Assembly: GCA_016784025.1 (NCBI GenBank)
Contig: JADHVL010000003.1
Location: 1 to 64,000 of the forward strand
Direction of reading: 5' to 3'
Source: Fidelibacterota bacterium
Lineage (GTDB): Bacteria; Fidelibacterota; UBA8477; JABMPR01
Length of the DNA stretch: 64,000 nucleotides
The notes under the pieces: generated by a model
What the model saw: only the letters and a program-made list of their open reading frames with translations
Databases searched by the model: none
Told to the model about the DNA's origin: nothing
Shown: piece by piece, positions 61,042-64,000 of the stretch
Layout of the letters: every line of letters starts with the position of its first letter
Position numbering within the stretch: position 1 is the first letter of the stretch
Made by a program: the position numbers and the translations under genes

Positions 61042-61626
61042 ATGATGAAACATGAATTACCAGCTCTGCCATTTGCACAGGACGCTTTAGCTCCAGTTAT
61101 CTCAGCCGAGACACTTGATTACCACTATGGCAAGCACCACAACGCCTATGTAACAAACTTGAACAACCTGGTCCCTGGAACTGAGTTTGAAAACTCAAGT
61201 CTGGAAGAAATTATTATGAAAGCATCTGGTGGTGTTTTTAATAATGCCGCCCAGGTCTGGAATCACACCTTCTACTGGAACTGTCTATCACCGAATGGTG
61301 GCGGCGTTCCATCAGGAGCCCTGGCTGCTGCAATTGATTCAGCCTTTGGTTCATTTGACAATTTTAAAGCCGAGTTTACCAAAGCTGCTGCTACCAATTT
61401 CGGTGCTGGTTGGACCTGGTTGGTTAAGAATGCTGATGGTTCATTAGCCATCGCTTCAACTTCCAACGCTGGAACACCTATGACCAGTGGTCAGACAGCA
61501 CTCCTCACGGTTGATGTATGGGAACATGCTTACTATGTGGACTATCGCAATGCGCGTCCAAAATATCTGGAAGAAATCTGGAAGATCTTCAACTGGGATT
61601 TTGTAGCTGAGCAGTTCGCAAAATAG
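61042..61626 (+). CDS. sod: iron/manganese superoxide dismutase
   Basis: Cytoplasmic or exported dismutation of superoxide to oxygen and peroxide. The 194 residues have the complete family layout: [17 protein letters not shown] (metal His), [17 protein letters not shown] (metal His), [38 protein letters not shown] (metal Asp and His). No signal peptide is seen. A second ATG at 61045 is an equally possible start. It has its own promoter-like box and a strong terminator, so it is monocistronic. Confidence 0.96.
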
Positions 61627-61707: not shown

Positions 61708-61731
61708 AGGCCAGAATTCGAATTCTGGCCT
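61708..61731. repeat. REP-like palindrome flanking the RAYT gene on its 3' side
   Basis: A perfect 24-base palindrome with half-site AGGCCAGAATTC. It differs from the other family members in the inner arm but has the same central TTCGAA and AGGC outer arm. It lies 30 bases beyond the RAYT stop codon. Confidence 0.75.
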
Positions 61732-61761
61732 TGATAACCACGCACCCAAATCCCACCCGAA

Positions 61762-62259
61762 TCATTTAAATTTGAAAACATGTCCATGGTCAACAAAACA
61801 AAATTTATTGTCCTCCAAATCGTGACGCTTTTGCTGTTTGAGGATATAATTGACGTGATTGTCAAAATCCCGTTTGCTGGTGATGAGGTGGGAGTGATAT
61901 GAGGGCTGCCATTGGAATTTATTAATCTTTTCGAGGTCAGGATTCGAATCCCGACCAGGGGAATATCGATGATGGAGAAAAACATTTACCTGTCGTGAAA
62001 ATTGTCGCTTCCATGATGCCATATAGTCAGAGATTGTACCGCACTGTCCAATTTGAGCTACGAGATGGACATGATCAGAGTTGAGTTTAAAGGCAATCAC
62101 CTGAACAGAGTGAATACTGGCCGCATAAAAAATAATATGTTCCAACAGATGTCCATATTCATACTGATCGAGAATGGAAAATCCCTCGCTCACATTGGTG
62201 GTAATGAAATAATATCCAAAACGACGATAGGGCCGTCGCCGTGTATTGCGATGTCGCAT
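61762..62259 (-). CDS. RAYT, REP-associated tyrosine transposase (Y1, HUH superfamily)
   Basis: The 165-residue protein has the HUH Y1-transposase core: FGYYFITTNVSEG at the N-terminus, LDQYEYGHLLEHIIFYAASIHSVQVIAFKLNSDHVHLV with the HUH pair His63 and His65, and WQPSYHSHL with candidate catalytic Tyr121 followed by DFDNHVNYIL. RAYTs nick and rejoin single-stranded REP hairpins and seldom mobilise themselves. Here a REP-like palindrome (61935-61956) encodes residues about 101-109 (PGRDSNPDL) in frame, in the loop just before the catalytic-Tyr motif. Palindromes flank the gene on both sides. The ATG at 62259 has AAGGATC upstream. Confidence 0.88.
   Translation of the reverse strand: MRHRNTRRRPYRRFGYYFITTNVSEGFSILDQYEYGHLLEHIIFYAASIHSVQVIAFKLNSDHVHLVAQIGQCGTISDYMASWKRQFSRQVNVFLHHRYSPGRDSNPDLEKINKFQWQPSYHSHLITSKRDFDNHVNYILKQQKRHDLEDNKFCFVDHGHVFKFK
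61935..61956. repeat. REP-like palindrome inside the RAYT coding sequence
   Basis: GGTCAGGATTC/GAATCCCGACC, a 22-base palindrome with a single A-C mismatch, matches the cores GGGATTCGAATCCC of the copies at 25442 and 62315. On the minus strand it is translated in frame as part of SPGRDSNPDLEK within the RAYT protein. Confidence 0.85.
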
Positions 62260-62314
62260 GGTGGATCCTTTTTATTGGGGTTACGGTAAGTTAAAATGGA
62301 TTTGTGCCAGTCCT

Positions 62315-62338
62315 AGGCTGGGATTCGAATCCCAGCCT
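62315..62338. repeat. REP-like palindrome flanking the RAYT gene on its 5' side
   Basis: A perfect 24-base palindrome with half-site AGGCTGGGATTC, about 56 bases upstream of the RAYT start codon. It is very close to the 25442 copy (half-site AGGCGGGGATTC). Confidence 0.8.
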
Positions 62339-62346
62339 GGAATATC

Positions 62347-62380
62347 GCAATCCCGATATGATATGGCAATCCCGACCAGG
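62347..62380. repeat. two degenerate half copies of the REP-like element
   Basis: GCAATCCCGA occurs at 62347-62356 and 62366-62375; the second continues CCAGG, and the preceding GGAATATCG also appears next to the internal copy (GGGGAATATCGA around 61959-61970). The arrangement looks like rearranged pieces of the internal RAYT copy. Confidence 0.5.
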
Positions 62381-62407: not shown

Positions 62408-62456
62408 GCCAGGATTGCCTGCGCTCCGCTCGGCTTACTCCGTTTCGAATCCTGGC
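62408..62456. repeat. REP-like palindrome interrupted by about 30 bases
   Basis: GCCAGGATT (62408-62416) and AATCCTGGC (62448-62456) are the two arms of the family. They are separated by about 31 bases (GCCTGCGCTCCGCTCGGCTT and following) that resemble the GC-rich dispersed repeats seen near 33590 and not the RAYT family. This looks like one repeat inserted into another. The rest of 62260-62569 holds no gene. Confidence 0.6.
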
Positions 62457-62569: not shown

Positions 62570-64000
62570 ATGCGTTTTACGGTAAGATCTATATACTTTC
62601 TGGTTCTGATCTCAACAGGTTTGTGGGGAAAAGGTGTTCATTACACACTTTCCATGTCAGAACCCCACACCCATCTATTTGAGGTTGAGATGCGGCTTGA
62701 AGGAGCCAAGGGAACTGAAGTGGTTGCACTTCCTGTTTGGACACCCGGCTCCTATCTCGTGAGAGAATATGCCAAAAATGTCCAGGATATCAGTGCCCGA
62801 AGTGAAGATGATACTGTTTTAAAGATCAAGAAGATTGACAAGAATCACTGGCAAGTCAAAGGTAAGGGCAGTCAAGATATCATTGTTTCTTACCGTGTAT
62901 ATTCATACGAACACAGTGTCCGGACCAGTTATTTGAATGCTGATCATGCCCTAGTTGTACCGGCTAGCGTCCTTATGTACTGGCAGAAAAACCAACAGCG
63001 AAAACATCATCTTCATATCAATATGCCCCAGAACTGGTCAGAGATTACAACAGCCCTGGAACCGATTAATAAGCCGGGGAATGTGGACTTCATTGCAAAA
63101 GACTATGATGAATTGGTTGACTCTCCCCTTGAGTTGGGAAATCAGCATGTGGTGAATTTCGAAGTTCTGGGAAAACCCCATGTCATGGCTCTGTACGGAG
63201 CCAGCAATTATGATGATTCGGTGCTGGTCGGTGATATTACAAAAATTATTGAAGCTGAAACAAAAATCTTCGGTGACCTGCCCTATGAACACTACAGTTT
63301 CATCTTTCATGTAGAAGAAGGGCGCGGTGGTCTGGAACATGCTAATTCCTCAGTCAACTTTATTAGACGCTGGTCTTTTAATGATGAGAAACGCTATAAA
63401 AGCTTTCTGTCTTTAGTAGCTCATGAATTTTTCCATACCTGGAATGTGAAACGCATTGTTCCAAAGGGCGTGGCCAGTTTTGACTATGACAAAGAAAACT
63501 ATCTGGAGGAGCTCTGGATGGCTGAGGGATTTACCAGCTACTATGATGAACTCATACTTCAAAGGATTGAGCACATCGATAGAGAAGCATATCTGGAAGT
63601 TTTGAAGGATGAAATCAATACACTGGAAAGCCGTCCTGGAAGGCTTCACCAATCCGTGGCAGAAGCCAGTTATGATGCTTGGATCAAATATTATCGCTCG
63701 AATGAGCACTCCAGCAACTCAACCATATCCTATTACAATAAGGGACACTTGCTGGGACTGCTTTTGGATATCAAAATCATTGCTGCAACAGATGGCAAAT
63801 CCAGTCTGGATGATGTCATGTTCAGATTGAATCGCGATTTTGCCCAGAAACAGAAGGGCTATACCAGTGATGATGTACGTAAGGTCTGCGAAGCTGTGAG
63901 CGGCTTGAAGTTGACCAGCTTTTTCGAAGATTTTGTGTTTGGTGTCGAGCCTCTGCCCTATGATGATGTCTTTGCTCTGGCCGGTCTGGATGTAGACTCA
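62570..64000 (+). CDS. M61-family glycyl aminopeptidase-like peptidase, truncated by window end
   Basis: The frame is open from ATG 62570 (AGGAGAG upstream) through base 64000, 477 codons so far. Signal peptide about 1-20 (FLVLISTGLWG). The N-terminal beta domain has LPVWTPGSYLVREYAKNV. The zinc site H285-E-F-F-H289 in VAHEFFHTWNVKRIVP and the downstream EELWMAEGFTSYYDEL with the third ligand Glu are typical of M61 (thermolysin-like fold), as is the late STISYYNKGHLLGLLLDI. M61 proteins usually also have a C-terminal PDZ domain, which would lie beyond the window. It is secreted to the periplasm or cell surface. Confidence 0.9.
   Translation, partial: MRFTVRSIYFLVLISTGLWGKGVHYTLSMSEPHTHLFEVEMRLEGAKGTEVVALPVWTPGSYLVREYAKNVQDISARSEDDTVLKIKKIDKNHWQVKGKGSQDIIVSYRVYSYEHSVRTSYLNADHALVVPASVLMYWQKNQQRKHHLHINMPQNWSEITTALEPINKPGNVDFIAKDYDELVDSPLELGNQHVVNFEVLGKPHVMALYGASNYDDSVLVGDITKIIEAETKIFGDLPYEHYSFIFHVEEGRGGLEHANSSVNFIRRWSFNDEKRYKSFLSLVAHEFFHTWNVKRIVPKGVASFDYDKENYLEELWMAEGFTSYYDELILQRIEHIDREAYLEVLKDEINTLESRPGRLHQSVAEASYDAWIKYYRSNEHSSNSTISYYNKGHLLGLLLDIKIIAATDGKSSLDDVMFRLNRDFAQKQKGYTSDDVRKVCEAVSGLKLTSFFEDFVFGVEPLPYDDVFALAGLDVDS

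Follow-up and report, generated by a model that had tools for sequence, protein, structure and literature searches.

In-frame REPs inside tnpAREP genes were described in 2018 as a unique feature of subclass 2.4, in a region judged to be peripheral (Quentin 2018, available text of PMC6006769). The same text places E. coli TnpAREP (rayT, PDB 4er8) in subclass 2.2, and describes subclass 1.2 as generally lacking typical terminal hairpins. Palindromic repeats are also known in frame in host genes, as in Rickettsia conorii, and REPs of the GTAG/CGTC type occur inside various ORFs (accessible part of PMC3733652). Moreover, clustered REPs retain their pairing via complementary mutations (PMC2817692, in the part available). 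Here, we analysed a 64,000-nucleotide stretch of DNA (the window) in contig C29 of the 3.5 Mb assembly of a Fidelibacterota bacterium (G000, the window genome), in which a transposase gene carries a REP-like palindrome within its own coding sequence. Unlike the cases in host genes, the palindrome here lies in the gene of its presumed cognate transposase. A preliminary description had called this arrangement less usual, which needs qualifying because of the 2018 report. The kind is already known; our contribution concerns the lineage that carries it, its position in the protein and the evidence on how it evolves.

The gene (61,762-62,259, minus strand) encodes a Y1 (HUH) transposase of 165 residues, as indicated by its ORF, a Pfam match, and structure-model and profile matches. 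It is flanked on its 3' side by a superoxide dismutase gene (61,042-61,626, plus strand) and on its 5' side by an M61-like peptidase gene (62,570-64,000, plus strand) that runs off the window, both named by eye. Using a protein search over 199 genomes, including all 19 of the genus, we found close orthologs, 63-90% identical, in the window genome and four congeners (G007, G009, G011 and G013), and weak matches at 27-41% identity in four other genomes of the phylum; L024 and L025, found by a contig search, were not counted again beside L015/L016 (G009, G013). The window protein passes the cut-off of Pfam Y1_Tnp (34.2 bits, cut-off 23), but scores 65.6 bits against NCBIfam REP_Tyr_transpos NF047646, below the cut-off of 80 that its orthologs miss as well, and 19.8 bits against the IS200/IS605 HMM NF033573, where 55 is required. 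With one full-length match to the transposase in its own genome, the mobile copies typical of IS200/IS605 elements were not seen.

The only PDB sequence matched by the profile of the window protein at E ≤0.01 is 4er8 (whole-sequence E 0.0039, 20.7 bits), and the profile alignment pairs residues 116-146 with 4er8 93-123. The HUH motif is His63/His65. The preliminary description had taken Tyr121 as the catalytic residue, but Tyr121 aligns with a Phe of 4er8, and the catalytic position, 115, is taken by Tyr138. In addition, Gln142 aligns with Asn119, a published metal ligand of 4er8 located about four residues past the catalytic Tyr. Judged by this alignment, the catalytic residue would be Tyr138 and the metal ligand Gln142. 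An AlphaFold model built from five sequences (mean pLDDT 73.8) resembles the solved structures of ISDra2, IS608 and E. coli TnpAREP, with an rmsd of 2.8 over 135 columns to the latter; outside the N-terminus, pLDDT falls below 50 solely at residues 101-112, between helix 76-99 and strand 122-126. Thus, Pfam, the fold and the 4er8 alignment all identify the Y1 HUH core of RAYT/TnpAREP proteins (HuH plus one catalytic Tyr), and the protein shares with E. coli TnpAREP the fold and the aligned positions of the catalytic Tyr and the metal ligand. However, the Y---NP motif of class 2, present in E. coli TnpAREP, is replaced by Y138-ILKQ, namely, Y---Q--RH in the window and Y---Q--HH in the other four orthologs, and the best dyad in the coding sequence of E. 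coli TnpAREP itself scores only 6. The gene product is a RAYT-like Y1 HUH transposase, and short palindromes of a family of its own stand on both sides of the gene.

All three palindromes named in the preliminary description were recovered. Those flanking the gene, 3' at 61,708-61,731 and 5' at 62,315-62,338, are perfect over 12+12 nucleotides. The inner palindrome (61,935-61,956) is of the same kind and, as proposed, keeps the reading frame of the gene, encoding (P)GRDSNPDL in a loop that joins helix aC to strand b4 and is disordered in the model; its position and frame stand, but its pairing is not perfect, ten of its 11 pairs being Watson-Crick and one being G-T on the coding strand. The letters of the 5' flanking copy recur identically in G009 over 22 nucleotides and in G013 over 24. 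Both flanks bear REPs, as expected of a RAYT gene, in the window and also in G009, G013 and, less perfectly, G011, while in G007 a split copy was seen on one side only. A fourth copy upstream of the window gene is likewise split (about 62,408-62,456), with its arms 31 nucleotides apart, and similar split copies occur elsewhere in the genus. As a side observation, the insert at the centre of the split REPs (62,408-62,456, L173-L177) begins with ACGnAGTnAGnCGAG; matches to this type number six in the window genome, five in G007, four in G006 and one in each of five others, with none in the remaining 11 of the 19 genomes. Separately, a 15-nucleotide direct repeat, ATATCGCAATCCCGA, lies at 62,342-62,375 with starts 19 nucleotides apart and adjoins the flanking REP.

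The palindrome of this family reads roughly CCAGGCNGGGATTCGAATCCCNGCCTGG. Its non-coding copies have CCAGG/CCTGG-like ends, a GATTCGAATC centre and a mid-stem that varies but pairs. The inner copies end in CAGG in four of the five orthologs (CTGG in the window) and have the GATTCGAATC centre in four (one base off in G009). The inner palindromes obey the same rule as the genomic copies, with near-constant ends and centre and a varied stem that pairs. At least four of the inner five pairs, allowing G-T, are formed in all 16 sites in G011; in G013 this holds for 25 of 29 sites, and in G000 for 17 among the 20 listed out of 23. These counts take in the copies within and beside the transposase gene. 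In two genomes without the gene, the figures are one of four and three of six sites. GTAG, the usual foot of RAYT-associated REPs, adjoins only two of the 19 non-coding copies examined in the window genome (L166 and L167). The palindrome is multicopy, as is typical for RAYTs, with 23 pattern matches in the window genome against 0 for the control and at least 17 of the 20 typed copies pairing, which is nonetheless fewer than the usual REP copy number of >100 (PMC2817692, available text). Although some matches in either group are expected by chance and four of the five gene carriers are closely related, the pattern was found 13-29 times in these five genomes, compared with 1-15 times in the 14 congeners that lack the gene (on counts, Mann-Whitney U 69 of 70, one-sided p 0.00095), or 3.8-7.4 versus 0.3-3.8 times per Mb (U 70 of 70, with genome sizes rounded to 0.1 Mb). 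Given the relatedness of the species and the incompleteness of their genomes, this relation is an association only. None of the 17 other copies that we fetched from the window genome, a subset, was judged to lie in the interior of a gene, with ORFs read by eye. One of the 17, at L155 1516-1542 (G000:C39), a palindrome near the inner one in sequence, forms the last codons of a nucleotidyltransferase-like ORF (named by eye).

The dyad is located at the same codons in all five orthologs of the genus. When the protein was held fixed and synonymous codons were redrawn 2000 times, dyads as good or better arose in 21 draws for the window, 32 for G009, 4 for G011 and 0 for G013 and G007. When the gene's own codons were permuted 200 times with G-T scored more mildly, none arose for the window, G013, G007 and G011, and 28 for G009, so the G009 copy alone is unremarkable. 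As single-stranded DNA, the five inner palindromes have z-scores of -4.0 to -6.3. Among the five sequences, four of the 11 stem pairs show two-sided changes and none does when the pairing is slid; the covariation is 0.382 versus a shuffled mean of 0.172, a value reached in one of 500 shuffles, and it is at most 0.064 when slid. Codons in the two arms change as CGG..GAC, CAG..GGC, GAC..CGC and GAG..CGC, encoding R..D, Q..G, D..R and E..R, with pairing kept. Since the stem codons swap amino acids while the pairing persists, it is apparently the DNA and not the peptide that is constrained. The present imperfections are one wobble pair in each of the window and G011 copies and one mismatch in the G009 copy. 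A chance origin, which we also considered, is disfavoured by the synonymous-codon null, the five orthologs and the covariation. The preliminary description had held that orthologs with the same residues and no palindrome would speak against its reading; the reverse was found, as the residues differ and the palindrome stays in all five. Its interpretation is supported in part; the self-recognition that it raised, with the enzyme binding its own gene or mRNA, would be a further possibility. Some constraint on the peptide is possible, because all five orthologs retain its PG, DS and L. The segment is not frozen: in nucleotide identity, the nine palindrome codons resemble the remainder of the gene in several pairs of orthologs (24/27 vs 428/468 for the window and G009), fall below it in some (17/27 vs 328/465 for G009 and G007) and exceed it in others (24/27 vs 343/480 for G007 and G011).

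We think it rather probable that the palindrome within the gene derives from the capture of a REP, that it is held as DNA and that it is putatively still recognised by the enzyme. In this explanation, one palindrome of the family would have been captured in frame in the aC-b4 surface loop, most likely before the five species diverged, and then inherited with the gene; its ends and centre would be kept nearly constant as DNA while the mid-stem varies in matched pairs, and the encoded residues would be a tolerated by-product in a disordered loop. We infer that the enzyme recognises the palindromes, putatively as single-stranded DNA, presumably by a constant foot and centre and any stem that pairs, and recognition, hairpin-templated correction, or both may keep the inner copy paired. 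Near-constant ends and centre with matched mid-stem changes are what would be seen if the inner copy still counted as a REP for the enzyme. The larger number of palindromes in the five gene-bearing genomes than in the 14 congeners adds support that is not independent. Several observations go against this explanation: the window, G011 and G009 copies pair imperfectly, the G009 dyad is reached in 28 of 200 permutations in one null, part of the peptide is invariant, and the gene carriers do not form one clade. Four of the five carriers have the gene in the interval that separates the superoxide dismutase gene from the M61-like gene (the G011 contig ends ahead of the dismutase), and the M61 locus was found in nine genomes without the gene, with the dismutase directly beside M61 in seven; in the other two, G001 and G016, no dismutase was seen at this locus. 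On an M61 tree of 14 genomes, presence of the gene requires three changes, and losses or transfer must therefore be assumed. In G012, which lacks the gene, two REP-like palindromes flank a terminator-like stretch in the dismutase-M61 gap (L114 1291-1395), a possible remnant or landing site.

The matched changes could equally well be produced by replication template switching, which alone could hold the arms matched by copying arm onto arm, so that a near-perfect palindrome would drift without any function. This process has been described at hairpins, where multibase compensatory changes are its hallmark (available text of PMC8794818). However, template switching by itself leaves unexplained both the near-constant ends and centre, in the gene and in the non-coding copies alike, and the concentration of inner dyads in certain Y1 clades (see below). 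We regard such neutral upkeep as a serious but less probable explanation.

To see how the locus compares with other Y1 proteins, we drew on a family search that gave RAYT-like matches in 98 of 244 genomes of the phylum, and examined 82 RAYT-like ORFs or fragments and 29 class-1 ORFs (leaving out one repeat of L020), of which 108 rows entered the dyad survey after three with masked stretches were set aside. A clade of 27 rows (support 99/100) was called 2.4-like on the basis of the published description, without reference sequences. Like subclass 2.4 (described in the available text of PMC6006769), the window gene has flanking REPs and an in-frame REP-like palindrome between the HuH and Y motifs. 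In contrast, the subclass 2.4 insert lies between b3 and aC, its Y motif is YIxNNP and its REPs end in GT[AG]G, whereas the window protein has the palindrome at aC-b4 and a Y---Q--[HR]H motif, and its family CCAGG-like ends. In a tree of 104 rows, from which insert columns were not taken out by hand, the best topology places the window family outside the 2.4-like clade, and a branch with support of 100/99 separates 30 class-1 rows from the rest; a union of the window family with the 2.4-like clade is not rejected (AU p 0.136), nor is one with L019 (p 0.426), and the branch joining it with class 1 has support of 23/53. The DH[IV]H and Y---Q--HH signature of subclass 1.2 (same source) is present in the family, with RH in the window itself. 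However, the family is not among the 30 class-1 rows and the window gene is REP-flanked; membership of subclass 1.2 is suggested by the Y motif and not shown by the tree.

Inner dyads scoring at least 8 were found in 34 of the 108 rows, 65 had none and nine had motifs that could not be placed. Among the 34, 24 are 2.4-like, five are the window family, one is L019 (G141), whose dyad lies within a long insert, and four are elsewhere (L053, L056, L075 and L090), with null counts of 2, 5, 6 and 46 of 200 that make them weak or chance dyads; the next weakest are L081 (7/200) and L001 (4/200). The dyad lies 6-8 residues before the conserved Trp in all five members of the window family, whereas in the 2.4-like rows it lies 32-47 residues before it in 21 (the b3-aC side) and 2-5 residues before it in L078, L081 and L082 (the aC-b4 side). 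The four weak or chance dyads are from the 38 other scored class-2 rows. As a separate observation by dyad pairing, L053 and L075 (G165 and G039, in another class-2 clade) have imperfect in-frame hairpins of 51-57 nucleotides shortly before the Trp motif, with 20 and 22 Watson-Crick pairs; the shorter dyads there have null counts of 2 and 6 of 200. Beyond the phylum, no relative was found among viral contigs (one scan with the window-family protein and one with a 2.4-type protein) or phages; plasmids gave one distant relative of the window protein, of the E. coli type (best inner dyad score 8), and four relatives of the 2.4-type protein, of which all but H4 were read (best dyads 5, 6 and 8, the last with a 5-nucleotide loop). 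Thus, no in-gene palindrome was confirmed outside the phylum in the relatives read.

These dyads also bear on a control function, in which the enzyme or the ribosome would meet the hairpin in the gene or its mRNA, limiting the protein's own synthesis or acting in cis on its own gene, with selection keeping the hairpin. In favour of it, a dyad lies between HUH and Y in 24 of the 27 2.4-like rows, a figure that gives no prevalence since L066-L105 were hand-picked from the family-search listing, versus none of the 28 class-1 rows with motifs placed (two more could not be scored). Moreover, 437 of 456 pairs are Watson-Crick in the 34 genes, although these were picked for their dyad score. The second RAYT of the window genome (L066) provides another argument, since its inner palindrome core, GTGTTTCGCGAAACAC, occurs (with at most one mismatch) once in G000 and once in G017, both times in the gene, and twice in G015, once in the gene and once elsewhere, and nowhere else among the 19 genomes of the genus; supply from a REP pool is therefore not needed there. 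However, three 2.4-like rows have no dyad, and no strand signature was seen, as the wobble test gave nine G-T versus five A-C pairs on the coding strand, including the doubtful rows L075 and L090, a result that favours neither the DNA nor the mRNA. We consider a control element possible but somewhat unlikely.

Slightly less likely still, fresh REPs may have re-entered the loop lineage by lineage, which would make each inner stem a reflection of the present genomic pool. The G013 inner stem equals another copy in the same genome (C131:1756), and a 28-nucleotide palindrome is read in two frames, frame 1 in L097 and L098 (GRDVACNVST) and frame 0 in L099 (VETLHATSLQ), which suggests in any case that the DNA and not the peptide is the unit. 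Repeated replacement may also account for G007 (L017), where, by eye, the loop is about ten residues longer and a half-REP-like stretch, perhaps an older copy, precedes the full palindrome. Against this, the G011 and window copies differ by single wobble steps from stems that occur elsewhere, as change in place would produce, and no pool was found for the second RAYT in G000 or G017, where the stems outside the core differ among G000, G017 and G015 and still pair; re-supply from a repeat pool is unlikely for this gene within the reach of the GTGTTTCGCGAAACAC pattern. Finally, a protein constraint on PGxDSNxxL that makes the DNA palindromic by chance is very improbable in spite of the invariant PG, DS and L, because the stem residues change with their partners in a loop disordered in the model, random synonymous codons for a fixed protein reach the dyad in only 0-32 of 2000 draws, and the arm codons change with pairing kept.

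In the literature searched (including PMC8266576 and PMC2817692 in their available text, supplements aside), we found neither the window family nor the aC-b4 site reported, nor any compensatory change in an inner REP. What appears new there is a separate lineage with a class-1 Y motif and the aC-b4 loop as a site, together with compensatory changes at one orthologous position that stays fixed, a single palindrome that different proteins read in two frames, and an inner core of a second RAYT that is found nowhere else in its genome. The locus offers a clean case of a coding stretch that apparently evolves by a DNA-pairing rule instead of a protein rule, with a transposase and its presumed substrate locked into one gene. 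The orthologs with different stems are ready test pieces for the roles of foot and centre versus stem letters in the reading of REPs, and could also show whether in-gene REPs are passengers or control elements. We raise, as a doubtful possibility, that several Y1 lineages keep their substrate hairpin in frame because it acts on the gene itself, which would mean recognition in cis, self-limiting synthesis or marking of the gene's own single strand. If so, such hairpins would have docked repeatedly in the aC-b4 and b3-aC loops, where the peptide would be free to change.
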